A stretch of DNA of 64,000 bases from NCBI GenBank assembly GCA_964019135.1, contig OZ025248.1, positions 55,483,670 through 55,547,669 of the forward strand. The letters run 5' to 3'. This DNA is from Arenicola marina (lineage: Eukaryota > Annelida > Polychaeta > Arenicolidae). Positions within the stretch are counted from its first letter, which is position 1, and each line of letters opens with the position of its first letter. Below the pieces are notes generated by a model. The model had not been told where the DNA came from and did not search any database. It saw only the letters and a list, made by a program, of their open reading frames with translations. The position numbers were made by a program, and so were the translations under genes. Shown piece by piece: positions 19,725 through 64,000 of this stretch.

Positions 19725-21935
19725 TAAACATCTGTTTGTGAAAATGCCTGAAGGGCCATCCGAATGACTGAATGCAATCTCAATAGCTGAACGGCCATCC
19801 CAATGGCTGAACGGCCAGCTCAATGACAGCAGTCATTTACAAGGCTGAACTGCCACCCCAATAGCTGAACGGCCATCTCAATGACAGCGGCCATCTCAAA
19901 AGCTGAACTGCCATCTATATGACAGTGGCCATCCCAAAGGCTGAACGGCCATCTCCATGACCACGGCCATCCCAAAGACTAAACAGCCATCTCAATGACA
20001 GCGGCCATCCCAAAAGGCTGAACGGCCATCTCAATGACAGCGGTCCCAAAGGCTAAGCTGCCATCTCAATGACAGCGGCCATCCCAAAGGCTGAACGGCC
20101 ATCTCAATTACAGCGGCCATCCAAAGGCTCAACGGCCATCTCAATGACAGGGGCCATCCCAAAGTCTGAACGGCCATCCCAAAGGCTAAACTGCCATCTC
20201 AATGACGGCGGCCATCCTAAAGGCTGAACGACCATCTCAATGGCTGAACGGCCATCTCAATGACAGCGGCCATCCCAAAGGCTGAACTGCCATTCCAATG
20301 GCTGAACGGCCATCCCAAAGGCTGAACTGCCATCCCAATGGCTGAACGGCCATCTCAATGACAGCGGCCATCCCAAAGGTTGAACTGCCAACTCAATGAC
20401 AGCGGCCATCCCAAAGGCTGAACGGCCATCTCAATGGCTGAACGGCCATCTCAATGACAGCGGCCATCCCAAAGGCTGAACGGCCATCTCAATGGCTGCA
20501 CGGCCATCCAAATGGCTGAACGACCATCTCAATGTCAGCCACCATCCCAAAGGGTGAACGGCTATCTCAATGACAACGGCCATTCCAAAGGCTCAACTGC
20601 CATCTCAATGACAACGGCCATCTCAATGACAGCATCCATCCCAAAGGCTAAACTGCCATCTCAATGACAGCGGCCATTCCAAAGGCTCAACTGCCATCTC
20701 AAAAACAGCGGCCATCCCAAAGGCTGAACAGCCATCCCGATGGCTGAACGGCCATCTCAATGACAGCAGCCATCTCAAAGGCTGAACGGCCATCTCAATG
20801 ACAGCGGCCATCTCAAAGGCTGAACGGCCATCTCAATGACAGCGGCCATCAAAAAGGCTGAACGGCCATCTCAATGACAGCAGCCATCCCAATGGCTGAA
20901 CGGCCATCTCAATGACAGCAGCCATCTCAAAAGCTGAACGGCCATCTCAATGACAGCGGCCATCAAAAAGGCTGAACAGCCATCTCAATGACAACGGCCA
21001 TCCCAAAGACTAAGCGGCCATCTCAATGACAGCGGCCATCCCAAAGTCTGAACGGCCATCTCAGTGACAGCGGTCATCTCAAAGACTGAACGGCCAGCTC
21101 AATGACAGCAGCCATCCACAAGGTTGAACGGCCATCTCATTGACAACGGCCATCCCAAAGGCTGAATGGCCATCTCCATGACAGCGGCCATCCCAAAGGC
21201 TGAACTGCCATCTCAAGGACAGCGGCCATCCCAAAGGTTGAACGGCCCTCCCAATGGCTGAATGGCCATCTCCATGACAGCCGCCATCCCAAAGGCTATA
21301 CTGCCAACTCCATGACAGCGGCCATCCCAAAGGCTGAGCTGCCATCTCAATGACAGCGGCCATTCCAAAGGCTCAACTGCCATCTCAATGGCAGCGGCCA
21401 TCCCAAAGTCTGAACGGCCATCTCAATGACAGCGGTCATCTCAAAGACTGAACGGCCAGCTCAATGACAGCAGCCATCCACAAGGTTGAACGGCCATCTC
21501 ATTGACAACGGCCATCCCAAAGGCTGAATGGCCACCTCCATGACAGCGGCCATCCCAAAGGCTGAACTGCCATCTCAATGACAGCGGCCATCCCAAAGGT
21601 TGAACGGCCCTCCCAATGGCTGAATGGCCATCTCCATGACAGCCGCCATCCCAAAGGCTATACTGCCAACTCCATGACAGCGGCCATCCCAAAGGCTCAA
21701 CTGCCATCTCAATGACAGCGGCCATTCCAAAGGCTCAACTGCCATCTCAATGGCAGCGGCCATCCCAAAGGCTGAACTGCCATCCCAATGGCTGAACGGC
21801 CATCTTAATGACAGCGGCCATCTCAATGACAGCGGCCATCCCAAAGGCTGAACTGCCATCCCAATGGCTGAACGGCCATCTCAACGACAGCGGCCATCCC
21901 AAAGGCTGAACTGCCATCTCAATGGCTGAGCAGCC
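19725..21935. repeat. GGCTGAACGGCCATC minisatellite, 2.2 kb
   Basis: The basic units are 18-20 bp and share CGGCCATCYCAA. The commonest composite is a 38-bp pair, GGCTGAACGGCCATCTCAAT plus GACAGCGGCCATCCCAAA. Order varies and some stretches use only one subtype. Open frames on the minus strand (up to 94 codons, rich in W, M and A) are by-products of the repeat. In copy A the same position holds only a few diverged units. Confidence 0.95.
21015..21745. repeat. 362-bp tandem block within the minisatellite
   Basis: The pattern at about 21015-21376 recurs 362 bp later with only scattered differences, including rare variants such as CATCCACAAGGTTGAACGGC. This is a recent higher-order duplication on top of the short units. 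Confidence 0.85.
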
Positions 21936-22854
21936 CTATTTTAGATCTGTCACCAGAGATGGGGGCAAATATAAAATCTGCACCCAGGCGTTAACTGCAT
22001 TCGCTAGGGTACAACGTGTACTGTGGTCGGAATGCCACTGATGGAAACGACTGAGTATATGTGTTGGCAGCTAGGGGATCATGGGTTTCTAACGCCTCTG
22101 ATTACACATAAAGAGCAAAAAGCGAAATGGGACTGAGCATGTAGCAAATCATCAATATTATTTTGTGGCAGGAAACATCTCGTGCAGCATGACTTGGTAG
22201 CCACCATAGGCGTTGTCATAACGATAAACATGTCGTGATCCTAGCGTCGAATGGTGAATGGTAAACAGCAAGTAAGTTATGAATCAAATGCAAACACAAA
22301 TGAGGAAGAGTTTCAGTTTTATATGACAAAGGAGAGAACATTTGGGCAATGAGTAATTTCTTCGCACATCTAGTGGTTACATGCAAGTCGATAGGATGTG
22401 AATACGGACATGAACTTGATGAGGAACATGTAGTTTTTGGCAATACCACGAACAACCGTAATATGGTACAGCAATGGTGTACCAGGGGAGTGTGGCAGTG
22501 TGAGGAGTGTTTACCACATGGCTGATTGGCTCACGTGCCATTTTATTGGTTTCTATGGCAATCAGCGCCAAATTGAAAATCGTGATAATGATCCCAGATT
22601 GCAAGATGAATACCTCACATTGACGACAGGGCCAGCGTTATGCTTGCCATGCGTTCAAACAAACGACATACCATGAACATCCACTGATTAGGAGCATGTA
22701 AATGTTAATTGCACATGATTCGTTGCCGCTGCTGTCTAGCAGGACTCTGACCGGTACTGTAAAGCGGTTTCTCATTTAAACAACGTCCCGCAAACAATGT
22801 TTTCGGGGTGTTGATCGGGACGAGAGAGACATGACAGGTATGTGGGAGTTTTGG

Positions 22855-28948: not shown

Positions 28949-29368
28949 CAACATGTACCGTACCGCATTCAGTGGGCGTCAACCCGTAATTACTGAACTG
29001 TTTTCGTGCTTGCCAATGTGGTGAAAACAATTAATCCTGACCTTATATAATCACAGTTGCCACGTACATGCATCCGTAGCAAAGCACCACTTGTCAGCCA
29101 AGGCATGAGCGTGGAGTATGTGGAGGTCTCTGATATGATTGAGTGGTCGATAGTCTGTATAATTCAATGATAAGTATATACCCGTGTCTTCTTACTTGTT
29201 TTGTTGTTGTTGAAATTTTCAATTTGTTCAAGCCTTTGTACTTTTTGCACCGGTAACATCTGTCCGCATATCCTATCATTACCTTATTTTTGCCCGGTGT
29301 TAGTATTGTTATTATAGGTTTTTCTTCTATTTTGATGTTATAAAAGATCACATTCCTGTTGGTCAGGT

Positions 29369-29551
29369 AGCCCGGGTGACAGCGACCCTATAGTCTTAGC
29401 CCGGGTGACAGCGACCCTATAGTCTTAGCCCGGGTGACAGCGACCCTATAGTCTTAGCCCGGGTGACAGCGACCCTATAGTCTTAGCCCGGGTGACAGCG
29501 ACCCTATAGTCTTAGCCCGGGTGACAGCGACCCTATAGTCTTAGCCCGGGT
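29369..29551. repeat. 29-bp tandem repeat, six identical units
   Basis: Six exact copies of a 29-bp unit (AGCCCGGGTGACAGCGACCC followed by TATAGTCTT) plus 9 bp of a seventh. No differences between units were seen, so amplification or homogenisation is very recent. It also holds CCCGGG in every unit. Confidence 0.97.
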
Positions 29552-40736: not shown

Positions 40737-43370
40737 GTCATATCGCGTCAATAGGGGAAGACAGGGAGAGTGGAACCATGTTCCCGAGATTGAGAGCAAG
40801 CTTATTAATTTGTAACCAATACTGTATGGGCTTTAATTCCCCATTCAGCGTTTCAATCGTTTTATTGATATCCTTGCCCGATAAACGGAAATTAGAATCA
40901 TCTGCAAATAGGATGTCAAACAATTGCGTATAAAAGAAATAAAAGTGGACCTAGAACAGAACATTGCAAGGCTCCACATACTATTCGAGATCGGTTCGAA
41001 AATGTATTATTGTAAACTACAAACTGTTCTCTTGCACTGAGGTAACGTTCTGGCCCCGTTAAAGCAGGCCCTCTTACGCCGTATCTGTTTAATTTTTTAA
41101 ACAATATATCGCGGTCAACCGTATCGAAGGCTTTCGAGAAATCAAGAAATACACCAACAGTAATTTGTCCCATTTCCCTAGCAGTCGTTAGTTTATCTTG
41201 CAGAAGTAAAAGGGCCAAGGTAGTAGAGTGATTTGATCTAAAACCAAATTGGTCTTTGTGTAGTAAGTCATACTTGTTAATAAAGTTGATTAAACGTTTC
41301 TGCATCAGCTGTTCGAACACTTTAGAGAATGTTGGAAGAATTGAAATTTGCCTGTAGTTAGTAAATAATTTACTATCCCCCCCTTTCAGGATAGGTGTTA
41401 CTTTTGCACGTTTAAGTTCTCCGGGAAATATCCCTTCACTATATGAGAGATTAATTACATGAGTTAAGGGTTGAATCTATAATCGTTTTGATTACTTTGG
41501 CTGTTAGCGAGTCCCATCCTGGTGAGCTGTTCTTTAGGGATGCAAGGGCGTTGCGGACTTCACTACTAGTAACTGGCTCAAGGAAAAGCGATTTAGTATT
41601 GGTATCTTTCATAAAAGTGAGTGGTGAATGTCCATTACTTGGGATTGTTTTTGATATAGATTAACCAACATGAACAAAGTAGTCATTAAACTCATTAACA
41701 ATTTGGCTTCTATCAGTAGTCAGTCCTCCTCTTATCGAAAATGTCGTTTGGGACTTCTGACCTTGTTTTTTGTTTACTGCCTCTTTAATTGTTTTCCACA
41801 TCTTAAACAAGTTATTTTGATTGGCTTTTATGGCGGATTGATAATACGTTTTTTCTGCCGCTCTAACAGTGGATAAAAGCTTATTTTATATTTTTTATAA
41901 TCTTGCTCAGATTCTTTGGTTTTTAGTCTCATAAATCTACAATACAATCGATTTTTCTTAGATATGCAGTTCTTTAATCCTGCGCTGAGCCAAGGCTTTC
42001 TGTTTTGATATTTAGATCTGGAGATAGTGAGATGAAAACATTTCTCATGTATAAGAGAAACTGAACTGTGGAGTTTAGTGTAGGCTTCCTGGGTGCTTTG
42101 GGTCTCTAAAATATTATCCCAGTTTTCGTTTGTTATACAATGAACAAATTTCTCAAGATTGGGCTTACTCACATTCCTTTAGTTTCACGATGTTAACTCT
42201 GTCAACATTAATCTGAACATACTCTGATATATAGAACACAGGAAAATGATCTGTAATATCTGTATACATAATGCCTTTCAGGGAAGAGTTAATATCGCAC
42301 TCGTTAGTGAAGATATTATCAATTAGCGTAGCTGTGGTACTTGTTACTCTGGTCGGTTTGCTTATAGCGGGTAGAAACGCATGGCTAAACATTGAATCAA
42401 TAAATTCAGCTGTGGGTCTATGAGAGTCCATATTCAGCAGATTAATGTTAAAATCTCCTGCGAGATAACAAACCACCTTTTCAGAGTAAATCTTATGCAA
42501 TAACTCGTCTAACTACTCATTAAATACAACAATGTTGGTATCCGGTGGTCGGTACACTACACCTACTGAAATTGACTTTTGGCTCACATGAGCTCCCTCA
42601 TCCAGTTGAAACAATAAAGATTCCATATGTTCATTAAATACATCCAAGTCCGGTCGTTTGCTGAAATTAACTCCGGACTTAATAAACATTGAAACCCATC
42701 CACCAGTTCTGTCTTGTCGGTAACTATTGACGGGGAGATAACCGTCCAAACCATGGCAATCAACGTTGCCTTCGTTAAACCAGGTTTCAGTAAAGGCATA
42801 CACAGTAAAATCGTGATTTAAAGTTTCAATATAAGATCCAAACTGTGAGAAGTTTTTCTGCGTACTTCTATGTTCATATGCATAATGGAAAATGACAGCT
42901 CCTCGAGTCTAAATTCTTTGCATGACTTATTGAAGGCGTCTTATAAATAGTATTTACAATCTGACATGCTCGCAGACGAATCTACATAGAAATTTACATC
43001 AGGGTCAGTGTCATTTACCGGCACCATATAATCTGAGTTTAACTCAAATGGATTAAACAACTGGCTTTCAAGCTCGACCAGTGGGATACGCGAATTATTG
43101 ACGCTACTAGACGAGATAGCGAGTTCAAAAGCCCGAGTCTCAGTTATCCCATTAAACGGAAATATTTCAGCTATACAATTGATGCAATACCATGAGTCAT
43201 TATTTTCTGTCACAACCTGCAGGTCTTCTCTGGTAAAATGAGATAAACAATTAACGTGATAGAAACAGTAGCAACTAGAACAATTTATATGACACGAGTG
43301 ATGTAATATCTTACGTTTGCATACAGCACAATGACAGTTGTTTCGCATACCAGTGTGTGGTATCAATATT
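40737..43370 (-). mobile_element. LINE with PHD finger, endonuclease and reverse transcriptase (CR1/L2 group)
   Basis: Read from 43366 downward. A Cys/His zinc finger of PHD type (43366-43170: CHCAVCKRKI, then NCSSCYCFYHVNC, then WYCINC). An apurinic-type endonuclease (about 42905-42170) with TETWFNEG, GVVYRPPD, LAGDFNINLL and TDHFPVF. A linker (42170-41830) with NRKPWLSAGLKNCI. A reverse transcriptase (about 41450-40740) with KDQFGFRSNHSTTLAL, VFLDFSKAFDTVDRDIL, VLGPLLFLLY and FADDSNF as catalytic box. Frames shift at least three times, and a stop follows VVFNE (about 42512) within one frame, so it is inactive. The thumb and C-terminus beyond about 40737 are missing. Related elements with the PHD finger fused to the endonuclease are known in invertebrates. 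Confidence 0.93.
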
Positions 43371-44422: not shown

Positions 44423-45749
44423 TCAGTTCGCCATGGCTTTAGGCAGCGCGGACTCCACCACTGCCTCTAGTAGCTTGTACTTCTCGGCGTTGGGGATTCT
44501 CCCGGCATATTGTCTTGTGACGACCACGATGACTCCGGTTTTCTTGTGGCGTCTGAGGAGATACCGTAGGTGTCCTCCGGAGCCGGGATCCCCGTCATCC
44601 TGCCAGCCTTCATCCTCGTTGGGGAGTCTTTATGCGGCGATGTTATGAATTGCTCCAGCCGCTTCCGTATCCATCAGCAGAAGGCGATAAGCCTTCCGGA
44701 TATCTTGTAGGGACTCGACCTGGATCACGGTGGCGTAGGCACTAGATGAGCACGAGGTTATGACGTCACCTGTGGTGGCTTGTTCCATGGATAGCAGCTC
44801 ATCCTCTCTCTCTCCAGGCGATTGGGCTAGTATGTCTCGTGTCGACACTGCAGGTAGGTTGTCTCGTTGGAGTTCATTATTGATGTAAAGCGCGTCGTTT
44901 GATATCCTGGTTTGGATCCTATGAGGAGCGGCTCTGTCTCTGGCCTGCTGGGCCCGTTCCCCAAACTCCCTACGCCTTTCGACAATTTCAACGGGAAACT
45001 GGGGGGTGACTTTTGGGGCGTTTCGTTCTTTGGAAAGTTTACTGCGACCAAACTCAAGAATAAGATCAGCGTCTTTATAAGACAGCAGTTTGAAGACATT
45101 CGGTCTTGGGCGTGCTTTCGAGCCGCCAGCTGCAGGCCCAAGCCTATGGCAGCGCTCAATGGCCGGTACCCCTGTGTAGCCATTGCTGGCCAGGAGGCCC
45201 CTCACCTAAGCCTCGCAGTCTTCTGGATGTTTTCTGTCAGAGGTGGGGTCCTCTTGGATGTTGTGGAGAAGGATATTATTCCTCAAAGACTGACTGGTAT
45301 TTTAGATTAAGGGACTCAGTCTGTAGGTCGCCAATTTGTTTATCCTGTTTAACAACGATTTTTTTCAGGAGTGATACATCATTCCTAAGATCCTGTATTT
45401 CATGCTGTAGAGTGGCGATTTGACCTGCATTTTCCCAGTTGTCTCTGGCTGAGAGGGCCAGTTGATCCAGGATCCCGTCGTTGCTATGGATTTTCGATGA
45501 ATGCACCTCATGTTGTGATAAAATCAAGTCCAGTTTAACATGTATCTGGCTAAGCGAGTCACTGATACTCGCTATATCCGTGGCGGGTGGGCTCGCGGGA
45601 GGGCTCGCGGGTGGGCTCGCCTGTCTTTGGCTTTGTTGACTTGACGACGGGTCCTCCATTATGGTATTATCGCTCAGAGACTTTGATTTCGTGAAATCCT
45701 TTAAGTCCCCACTTCGTGTCCTGTTTCTCTTCCTTAACGGTTTTCCCAT
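44423..45749 (-). pseudogene. LINE ORF1: coiled coil, L1-type RRM/CTD and IMPACT-like C-terminus
   Basis: Starts MGKPLRKRNRTRSGD at 45749. About 45560-45290 is a heptad-like coiled coil (IATLQHEIQDLRNDVSLLKK), preceded by a PPASPPASPPA spacer. After a frame change at about 45205-45276, RNNILLHNIQED and IERCHRLGPA followed by RPRPNVFKLLSYKDADLILE match the L1 ORF1 (Transposase_22) RRM, and FPVEIVERRREFGE its C-terminal domain. From about 44770 the frame reads AYATVIQVESLQDIRKAYRL, GAIHNIAA, one stop (44630-44632), then RLPNEDEGWQDDGDPGSGGH and GVIVVVTRQYAG, ending at a stop at 44423. That order matches the IMPACT/UPF0029 fold (ATHNIYAYR, DDGE.GAG, VVVSRWYGG). The Gly-Gly of the last motif is replaced. 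It is inactive as it stands. Confidence 0.82.
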
Positions 45750-60419: not shown

Positions 60420-63400
60420 TAAGGTAGTACCTAGCTCTCAACATGCTTGATGTAATACTAATGACCCATTTCGCTCAGTTAGATGGCATCCAGCTCTCAT
60501 CATGCCATGTCTGATGTCTTACTGGTGACACGTGTCGCTCTGTAAGATGGCGCCCAGCTCTCATCATGGCATGGTTGGTGTCTTGCTGATGACCCGTGTC
60601 GCTGTGTAAGATGGCATCCAGCTCTCATCATGCCATGGTTGGTGTCTTACTGATGACCCGTGTCGCTCAGTTAGATGGCATCCAGCTCTCATCATGCCAT
60701 GTCTGATGTCTTACTGGTGACTCGTGTCGCTCTGTAAGATGGCGCCCAGCTCTCATCATGGCATGGTCTGTGTCTTGCTGATGACCCGTGTCGCTCTGTA
60801 AGATGGCATCCGGCTCTCATCATGCCATGTCTGGTGTCTGATGATGACCCATGTCGCTCAGTAAGATGGCGCCGAGCTCTCATCATGGCATGGTTGGTGT
60901 CTTGCTGATGAGCCGTGTCGCTCAGTTTGATGGCATCCAGCTCTCATCACGCCATGTCTGATGTCTTACTGCTGACACGTGTCGCTCTGTAAGATGGCGC
61001 CAAGCCCTCATCATGGCATGGTTGGTGTCTTGCTGATGACCCGTGTCGCTCTGTAAGATGGCATCCAGCTCTCATCATGCTATGGTTGGTGTTATACTGA
61101 TGACCCGTGTCGCTCAGTTAAATGGCATCCAGCTCTCATCATGCCATGTCTGATGTCTTACTGGTGACACGTGTCGCTCTGTAAGATGGCGCCCAGTTCT
61201 CATCATGGCATGGCTGGTGTCTTGCTGATGACCCGTGTCGCTCTGTAAGATGGCATCCAGCTCTCATCATGCCATGGTTGGTGTCTTACTGATGACCCGT
61301 GTCGCTCAGTTAGATGGCATCCAGCTCTCATCATGCCATGTCTGATGTCTTACTGGTGACACGTGTCGCTCTGTAAGATGGCGCCCAGCTCTCATCATGG
61401 CATGGTTTGTGTCTTGCTGATGACCCTTGTCGCTCTGTTAGATGGCATCCAGCTCTCATCATGCCATGGTTGGTTTCTTACTGATGACCCGTGTCGCTCA
61501 GTTAGATGGCATCCAGCTCTCATCATGCCATGTCTGATGTCTTACTGGTGACACGTGTCGCTCTGTAAGATGGCGACCAGCTCTCATCATGGCATGGTTG
61601 GTGTCTTGCTGATGACCCGTGTCGCTCAGTAAGATGGCGCCCAGCTCTCATCATGGCAAGGTTGGTGTCTTGCTGATGACCCGTGTCGCTCTGTAAGATG
61701 GCATCCAGCTCTCATCCTGCCATGTTTTATGTCTTACTGATGACCCGTGTCGCTCCGTTAGATGGCATGCAGCTCTCATCATGCCATGTTTGATGTCTTA
61801 CTGGTGACCCGTGTCTCTCAGTAAGATGGCATCCAGCTCTCATCATGGCATGGTTGGTGTCTTGCTGATGACCCGTGTCGTTCAGTTCGATGGCATCCAG
61901 CTCTCATCATGCCATGTCTGATGTCTTACTGTTGACACGTGTCGCTCTGTAAGATGGCGCCCAGCTCTCATCATGGCATGGTTGGTGTCTTGCTGATGAC
62001 CCGTGTCGCTCAGTTAGATGGCATCCAGCTCTCATCATGCCATGTCTGATGTCTTACTGGTGACACGTGTCGCTCTGTAAGATGGCGCCCAGCTCTCATC
62101 ATGGCATGGTTTGTGTCTTGCTGATGACCCGTGTCGCTCTGTAAGATGGCATGCAGCTCTCATCATGCCATGGTTGAGGTCTTACTGATGACACGTGTCG
62201 CTTAGTTGGATGGCATCCAGCTCTCATCATGCCATGTCTGATGTCTTACTGGTGACACGTGTCGCTCTGTAAGATGGCGCCTAGCTCTCATCATGGCATG
62301 GTTGGTGTCTTGCTGATGACCCGTGTCGCTCAGTAAGATGACGCCCAGCTCTCATCATGGCATGGTTTGTGTCGTGCTGATGACCTGTGTCGCCCCGTAA
62401 GATGGCATCCAGCTCTCATCATGCCATGGTTGGTGTCTTACTGATGACCCGTGTCGCTCAGTTAGATGGCATCCAGCTTTCATCATGCCATGTTTGATGT
62501 CTTACTGGTGACCCGTGTCGCTCAGTAAGATGGCGCCCAGCTCTCCTCATGGCATGTTTGATGCCTTACTGCTGACCCGTGTCGCTCTGTAAGATGGCAT
62601 CCAGCTGTCATCATGGCATGGTTGGTGTCTTGCTGATGACCCTTGCCGCTCTGTAAGATGGCGCCCACCTGTCATCATGGCATGGTTGGTGTCTTGCTGA
62701 AGACGCGTGTCGCTCTGTAAGATGGCATCCAGCTGTCATCATGCCATGGTGGATGTCTGATGATGACCGATGTCGCTCAGTAAGATGGCGCCCAGCTCTC
62801 ATCATGGCATGGTTGGTGTCTTGCTGATGACCCGTGTCGCTCAATTAGATTGCATCCAGCTCTCATCATGCCATGTCCGATGTTTTACTGGTGACACGTG
62901 TCGCTCTGTAAGATGGCGCCCAGCTCTCATCATGGCATGGTTGGTGTCTTGCTGATGACCCGTGTCGCTCTGTAAGATGGCGCCCAGCTCTCATCATGCC
63001 ATGGTTGGTGTCTTACTGATGACCCGTGTCGCTCAGTTAGATGGCATCCAGCTCTCATCATGCCATGTCCGATGTCTTGCTGATGACCCGTGTCGCTCTG
63101 TAAGATGGCGCCCAGCTCTCATCATGGCAAGGCTGGTGTCTTGCTGATGACCCGTGTCGCTCTGTAAGATGGCATCCAGCTCTCATCATGCCATGGTTGG
63201 TGTCTTACTCATGACCCGTGTCGCTCAGTTAGATGGCATCCAGCTCTCATCATGCCATGTCTGATGTCTTATTGGTGACACGTGTCGCTCTGTTAGATGG
63301 CGACCAGCTCTCATCATGGCATGGTTGGTGTCTTGCTGATGACCCGTGTCGCTCCGTAAGATGGCGCCCAGCTCTCATCATGGCATGGTTGGTGTCTTAC

Positions 63401-64000
63401 TGATGACCCGTGTCGCTCAGTTGGATGGCATCCAGCTCTCATCATGCCATGTCTGATGTCTTACTGGTGACACGTGTCGCTCTGTAAGATGGCGCCTAGC
63501 TCTCATCATGGCATGGTTGGTGTCTTGCTGATGACCCGTGTCGCTCAGTAAGATGGCGCCCAGCTCTCATCATGGCATGGTTTGTGTCGTGCTGATGACC
63601 TGTGTCGCTCCGTAAGAAGGCATCCAGCTCTCATCATGCCATGGTTGGTGTCTTACTGATGACCCGTGTCGCTCAGTTAGATGGCATCCAGCTTTCATCA
63701 TGCCATGTTTGATGTCTTACTGGTGACCCGTGTCGCTCAGTAAGATGGCGCCCAGCTCTCCTCATGGCATGTTTGATGTCTTACTGGTGACCCGTGTCGC
63801 TCTGTAAGATGGCATCCAGCTGTCATCATGGCATGGTTGGTGTCTTGCTGATGACCCTTGCCGCTCTGTAAGATGGCGCCCAGCTGTCATCATGGCATGG
63901 TTGGTGTCTTGCTGAAGACACGTGTCGCTCTGTAAGATGGCATCCAGCTGTCATCATGCCATGGTGGATGTCTGATGATGACCCGTGTCGCTCTGTAAGA
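60420..64000. repeat. 64-bp satellite array, about 56 units, continues past the window
   Basis: Units run from GATGGC to GCTCTGTAA. Three main subtypes differ at fixed sites. Type A has GATGGCGCCC and CATGGCATGGTTGGTGTCTT. Type B has GATGGCATCC, CATGCCATGTCTGATG and GGTGACACG. Type C has GATGGCATCC, CATGCCATGGTTGG and ends CTCAGTTA. They often follow each other in the order A, C, B, giving a higher-order period near 192 bp, with many irregularities. The first unit (60420-60481) is the most diverged, as expected at an array edge. Since 3 x 64 = 192 is divisible by 3, open frames arise but are not genes. Confidence 0.97.
62206..64000. repeat. 1,215-bp-offset block duplication inside the satellite
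   Basis: 62206-62785 recurs at 63421-64000 with about ten differences by eye. Shared rare variants include GTGTCGTGCTGATGACCTGT, CAGCTTTCATC, CAGCTCTCCTCATGG, GACCCTTGCCGCTC and GTGGATGTCTGATGATGACC. The offset equals about 19 units. Confidence 0.9.

Follow-up and report, generated by a model that had tools for sequence, protein, structure and literature searches.

In the genome of the polychaete Arenicola marina, a LINE lineage carries a UPF0029/IMPACT-type domain as a regular C-terminal part of its ORF1, and the identity of this fusion (a UPF0029 domain joined to a LINE ORF1) is near certain. The best explanation overall, held with modest confidence, is that a LINE ORF1 gained the UPF0029 domain, that ORF1 was afterwards exchanged, and that the domain would serve as an accessory binding module.

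The copy in the window (the whole 64,000-nucleotide stretch analysed; Table 1) was aligned by blastn to L015:2385-7494, a relative with open frames, with 91.3% identity over 5153 columns, and the alignment stopped at 40785, before the end of the L015 ORF2. The peptides quoted in the preliminary description, which had proposed an IMPACT/UPF0029-like domain at the end of a LINE ORF1, were present in a single frame of the minus strand running from 45205 down to 44426, and the place given there (44423-44770) fits the extent of the domain as delimited by similarity to the open copy. The single stop reported in the same frame corresponds to one TAA within the domain. The window ORF1, starting near 45749, is frame-shifted, with its N-terminal part and its RRM/CTD in different frames; one TAG lies inside the RRM/CTD, and ORF2 is broken into several pieces. 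Pfam matches of the ORF1 N-terminal part were all below the cut-off, and the coiled-coil-like region was visible in the alignment only. For the endonuclease region of ORF2, 42165-42512 matched Exo_endo_phos with an E-value of 0.0043, below the cut-off, and 42513-42908 had no match. In addition, a PHD-like Cys/His segment was observed at the ORF2 N-terminus of the window family, in the window copy as well as in the relative L010, the ORF2 of which matched PHD with an E-value of 0.0014, also below the cut-off; PHD domains at the 5' end of ORF2 are known from L2 subgroup 5 and CR1 subgroup 4 (PMC4120745).

Table 1. Parts of the LINE copy in the window (window positions).
Feature	Start	End	Strand	Basis
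Decayed LINE copy with IMPACT-like domain	40785	45850	minus	blastn to L015
ORF1 N-terminal part: basic start, low-complexity stretch, coiled-coil-like region	45276	45749	minus	open frame; aligned in relatives
L1-type RRM and CTD of ORF1	44768	45292	minus	93% aa identity to L015 RRM/CTD; frame-shifted
UPF0029/IMPACT-type domain, ORF1 C-terminus	44426	44749	minus	PF01205 E 1.3e-9; 91% aa identity to L015 domain
In-frame TAA inside UPF0029 domain	44630	44632	minus	window copy; domain of open copies elsewhere stop-free
ORF2 N-terminal Cys/His-rich, PHD-like segment	42941	43384	minus	open frame; window copy without Pfam match
ORF2 endonuclease-region pieces, two open frames	42165	42908	minus	Exo_endo_phos weak match
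ORF2 reverse transcriptase piece	40916	41476	minus	RVT_1 E 3.7e-17

The Pfam scan of the window was performed on a 260-residue read in which the in-frame stop was entered as X, and UPF0029 (PF01205) was the sole family matched, scoring 38.5 bits (cut-off 27) along positions 5-88 of 107; the profile match on which the preliminary description had made its proposal depend was significant. Taken alone, the part after the stop matched UPF0029 with an E-value of 3.6e-5 (24.2 bits, below the cut-off), and the part before the stop showed no UPF0029 match in the same scan. Against the PDB, the window domain alone gave a weak match to the IMPACT homolog 6bqi (E 0.049), and a profile built from the domains of 16 relatives matched the same structure with an E-value of 2.7e-9 and, at E-values up to 1, nothing besides it, bacterial family members included. 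The C-terminal domain resembles eukaryotic IMPACT, and a eukaryotic IMPACT gene is most likely its source. A recent transfer from bacteria was considered and is not favoured, because the LINE profile found IMPACT and, at E-values up to 1, no bacterial PDB member, and because the LINE domains lack the two extra residues present in two bacterial sequences. No relatives were found in a phage collection (DNA search) or in viral, bacterial and archaeal contigs (domain profile). A single-sequence structure model of the domain was too poor to use (mean pLDDT 54), and its fold search was without a match at E-values up to 0.001.

The RRM/CTD part of the window copy matched no Pfam family. Its profile found LINE-1 ORF1p structures in the PDB, namely 2ykp (E 2.3e-5), 2yko (2.6e-5), 2ldy (2.7e-5), and 2w7a (0.01), together with one unrelated designed protein at an E-value of 0.16, and therefore the L1-type label given to this part at the outset holds. 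The profile PF02994, which had been named for the same purpose, contributed nothing: 0 matches were obtained in the genome and none in the 10 open ORF1s, and the genome search is uninformative because control genomes gave no match either. The order of coiled-coil-like region, RRM, and CTD is the same as in the Type II LINE ORF1 (L1 ORF1p; 'Tnp22' in Metcalfe and Casane 2014, PMC4120745), whereas the ORF1 described here has an extra C-terminal UPF0029 domain of about 110 aa.

Searches for further copies covered the genome that contains the window (one genome, 867 Mb in 762 contigs). Its COX1, on contig C762, is free of stops when read with the invertebrate mitochondrial code, among others. A profile search with PF01205 yielded 289 first-look candidates, 150 of which were scored; all 150 were above the cut-off, and for 66 of them the frame is at least 400 aa long. 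Not every scored match is a LINE: at least one (C10:33245131) is a host exon with a canonical RWYGG; at this locus (L047, C10:33242600-33245500), the exon of an apparent host IMPACT gene was observed beside minisatellite-like repeats. In a scan of ten open ORF1s (427-475 aa), each of them matched PF01205 above the cut-off (E 1.1e-9 to 1.2e-15).

The co-occurrence of the RRM and the IMPACT-like domain was followed from the RRM/CTD side with two queries, whose lists of 150 places overlap. With the RRM/CTD of L015 (1029 candidates), a UPF0029 match lay just downstream in 108 of the 150 scored places, and 18 of the 42 unpaired places were fetched, of which 15 hold at least part of the domain and three do not. 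The total for this query is thus 123 of 126 examined places among the 150 listed. The second query, the RRM/CTD of the L1-type element L016, gave 104 places paired with UPF0029 out of 150, which is a lower bound because the list of UPF0029 places is incomplete (one place from the profile scan and many from the similarity search are missing). Among its 46 unpaired places, 20 were fetched, of which 19 hold at least part of the domain and one (L065) is interrupted near the expected start; five further unpaired places were known from the L015 test, with the domain in L032, L034, and L036 and without it in L037 and L044. The domain was accordingly present in 126 of 129 examined places of the 150 listed for L016, a count that takes in 25 of the 46 unpaired places. 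Across both lists there are four distinct exceptions (L035, L037, L044, and L065), each interrupted near the domain start: L044 breaks into other sequence before the domain, and L035 and L037 about ten residues inside it. At L031, L032, L054, L055, L056, and L057, the domain is partial or divided between two frames. Among the places examined, neither query turned up an intact ORF1 of this lineage that lacks the domain. The proposal that a LINE lineage carries this domain, and the co-occurrence by which it was to be checked, were both borne out in this genome. Seven places, L015 included, have a domain protein 100% identical to that of L015, which suggests recent spread.

Members of the UPF0029 family are marked by the His of a THN..AYR motif, by DDGE, and by RW(F/Y)GG. 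In 16 aligned LINE domains, His37, Asp54-Gly55, Gly58, and Arg61 are invariant and Asp53 nearly so (L015 numbering). Alignment with segments of 6bqi, 2cve, and 1vi7 revealed that the His and DDG motifs are common to LINE and cellular domains and that the RW(F/Y)GG loop of the cellular members has been lost from the LINE domains; after DDG, the LINE domains are spaced like 6bqi, and the two bacterial proteins are longer by two residues there. The isoelectric point was 7.9-10.7 in all 16 LINE domains versus 5.1-6.6 in all three cellular segments, although pI is only a rough guide and two of these cellular segments are shorter (85 and 91 aa).

The domain is evidently under constraint in LINE ORF1s, judging from substitutions counted by the Nei-Gojobori method in eight pairs. 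In the older comparisons, where dS is 1.1 or more throughout, the two least saturated gave a domain dN/dS of 0.10 (L014/L027, dS 1.11; 0.11 with L026/L027 as a near-identical substitute) and 0.30 (L015/L023, dS 1.13); values of 0.11 and 0.14 were obtained for L015/L014 and L023/L027, both with dS above 2, and L012/L016 was saturated. The young pairs gave ratios of 0.29-0.84 or undefined ones, i.e., undefined in the domain and 0.29 in the RRM/CTD for L014/L026, and 0.41 in the domain and 0.84 in the RRM/CTD for L020/L028.

RVT_1 and Exo_endo_phos matches were present in all eight ORF2s scanned, and the UPF0029-bearing ORF1 occurs both with L1-type and with unrelated non-L1 ORF2s. The ORF2 of L012 matched L1 ORF2p nearly end to end (residues 14-1189, 332 bits, E 4.8e-98), and L016, with an ORF2 54% identical to that of L012, was assigned to the L1 group via L012. 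The L015 ORF2 matched L1 ORF2p over the RT only (E 2.9e-17), and the non-L1 ORF2s (window family, L015) presumably belong to the Jockey superfamily. Between L012 and L015, the ORF2s are 26% identical over 376 residues, whereas the ORF1s are 35% identical in the RRM/CTD and 42% in the UPF0029 domain; ORF1s of the lineage diverge by up to about 65% in the RRM/CTD.

In trees of 12 loci, ORF2 grouped L010, L015, and L023, a group rejected by ORF1 (p-AU 8.8e-6), and ORF1 grouped L010 with L017, which was rejected by ORF2 (p-AU 2.1e-6), the groups for these AU tests having been picked after the identities were seen. The 12 were chosen from the 20 large loci (L009-L028) for having an ORF2 stretch that could be used, each near-identical family pair being represented by one member; L019 supplied the ORF1 in place of that of L018 (same family), the frame of which has a long foreign N-terminal extension, the ORF2s of L024 and L025 are partial, and L022 is a long branch of unsure placement. 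At L022, a UPF0029-bearing ORF1 and a diverged ORF2 were observed, flanked by long repeat arrays whose translation gives proline-rich open frames. The most direct sign of conflict comes from L015 and L023 (C12): along 2994 bases that include ORF2 their DNA is 90.9% identical, against 65% in ORF1, and the shared stretch ends some 100 bases before the ORF2 frame begins, near L015:5115; this junction has the look of a recent ORF1 exchange.

The simplest reading of these patterns is that whole ORF1s have been exchanged among ORF2 partners. The L1-type L012 and L016 fall together in both trees (ORF1 support 100/99), and therefore an exchange of ORF1 across the divide of L1-type and non-L1 ORF2s would have to be old. 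Vertical descent of a UPF0029-bearing ORF1 from a common ancestor is a formal but less likely alternative, given that ORF1 is less diverged than ORF2. Reticulate evolution of ORF1 inside the Jockey superfamily is already known (PMC4120745), and the finding of the same kind of ORF1 on L1-type and non-L1 ORF2s goes beyond the exchanges described there.

With this fusion, the range of LINE ORF1 types gains one more domain, captured domains as such being already known from retroelements. The LINE ORF1 domains named in PMC4120745 are coiled coil, RRM, CTD, CCHC, PHD, esterase, zinc finger, and leucine zipper, and a word search of its main text found IMPACT, UPF0029, and YigZ absent; likewise, titles and abstracts in the literature searched, which covers few subscription journals, yielded no report of a UPF0029/IMPACT domain in a LINE. 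Parallels of domain capture are the esterase in the ORF1 of CR1/L2 (PMC4120745), a viral helicase in TRAS (PMC5563155), and an m6A demethylase in orchid Ty3/Gypsy elements (PMC9289625); these concern other domains and host groups, whereas here an L1-type ORF1 is found on both L1-type and non-L1 ORF2s. Compared with IMPACT/Yih1, which combines RWD and UPF0029, the LINE domain agrees in its His and DDG motifs and, with 6bqi, in the spacing that follows DDG, but it is basic, has lost RW(F/Y)GG, is fused to RRM/CTD on a retrotransposon, and comes without an RWD match. Bacterial YigZ/TTHA1053 belongs to the same Pfam family and has the His and DDG motifs in common with the LINE domain, whereas DDGE is followed by two additional residues in the two bacterial sequences aligned. 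In YigZ, UPF0029 is followed by DUF1949; neither RWD nor DUF1949 was matched in any of the 10 open LINE ORF1s at E-values up to 0.1.

According to the mechanism proposed here, a LINE ORF1 lineage with an N-terminal coiled-coil-like region, an L1-type RRM, and a CTD would have acquired a C-terminal UPF0029 domain, most likely derived from a eukaryotic IMPACT gene, and whole ORF1s would subsequently have been swapped among ORF2 partners. The domain would then act as an accessory binding module of the ORF1 ribonucleoprotein, in which the conserved His/Asp-Gly cluster was retained and the surface may have turned basic, most of all in the helix that follows DDG. Accessory binding of RNA or ribosomes is the favoured role because part of the conserved cluster has been kept, no RWD was matched, and the domain is basic. 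As for the specific mode of action, added RNA or ribosome binding, by which ORF1p would stay at the translating ribosome on the mRNA that encodes it, is a tentative proposal, clearly short of an even chance. Against it stands the mapping in Yih1, where the region sufficient for ribosome binding is said to overlap a linker-containing Cdc28 determinant and not to be the ancient domain as such; loops on one face of the protein are reported to hold the motifs that do not vary from Yih1 to YigZ (PMC4503747). The 'ancient' UPF0029 domain itself is found in bacteria and eukaryotes; its function has been called unknown or elusive (PMC7140605, PMC4503747, PMC5054600), and the LINE copies bear on it: a retroelement with this domain in an RNA-binding protein offers a selectable readout, because loss of the domain should cost retrotransposition if the domain matters.

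The domain could instead be a structural cap or passenger that was fixed in the founder ORF1 and is kept only for the folding or trimer packing of ORF1p. Its presence in nearly every related ORF1 examined is what a founder effect predicts, and the decay of the RW(F/Y)GG loop is in line with it, but the His, Asp-Gly, and Gly/Arg positions are invariant in all 16 rows despite the strong divergence of the RRM/CTD, and the basic surface suggests a use beyond packing; we regard this explanation as rather unlikely.

The preliminary description had linked the domain to translation control through GCN1/GCN2, with a possible benefit to the retroelement under stress or at ribosomes. On this reading, the domain would dampen GCN1/GCN2 signalling as IMPACT does, so that LINE mRNA is translated under stress. 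Membership of the IMPACT family (the PF01205 match and 6bqi) speaks for this, as does a suggested role of PF01205 together with PF09186 in countering translation inhibition, cited by a study of coupling (PMC6822775). However, competition for GCN1 is a property of the N-terminal RWD domain of Yih1/IMPACT, and overexpression of RWD by itself strongly inhibits the recovery of yeast from amino-acid starvation (PMC7140605, PMC4503747, PMC5054600). This reading is weak because the GCN1-binding RWD domain was not found in any of the 10 ORF1s; the cellular RW(F/Y)GG loop is lost as well, and action through GCN1/GCN2 is considered improbable. On a comparable level of improbability stands the stronger version of the accessory-module account, in which a single capture of the IMPACT ancient domain would have created an ORF1 module mobile across L1-type and non-L1 LINEs, with a ribosome-acting ribonucleoprotein that holds its own mRNA and shields the translation of this mRNA from stress control; if true, it would provide an assay for a domain of unknown function shared by bacteria and eukaryotes.

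Less probable still is a role of the domain in tethering the LINE ribonucleoprotein to some Yih1/IMPACT partner besides GCN1, for example G-actin or a cyclin-dependent kinase. Both G-actin and Cdc28 are bound by Yih1, whose fragment 133-258 still bound Cdc28, but the major Cdc28 determinant mapped in this fragment includes the linker (PMC4503747), and the LINE sequence offers no pointer to G-actin or a CDK. Finally, a chance junction or mis-scored repeat, with an IMPACT pseudogene neighbouring a LINE fragment, would fit the frame shift and stop of the window copy, but its probability is practically negligible and it was rejected because open single-frame ORF1s with the domain exist at many places and RRM and domain co-occur, the exon of the host's own IMPACT-like gene with its canonical RWYGG lying elsewhere.

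Several minor observations were made in addition. Closely similar ORF1s are clustered at C19:19.13-19.31 Mb (four) and C9:40.79-40.84 Mb (several), and these clusters are probably segmental or tandem duplications carrying a LINE. Within the window, overlapping tandem arrays with periods of 20, 38, and 324 occupy 19743-21929, and strong GC and AT skew was detected at 20001-22000. A 29-base unit is repeated 6.3 times with 100% matches at 29368-29551, and a 64-base satellite of about 56 copies extends from 60442 to 64000, up to the window end.
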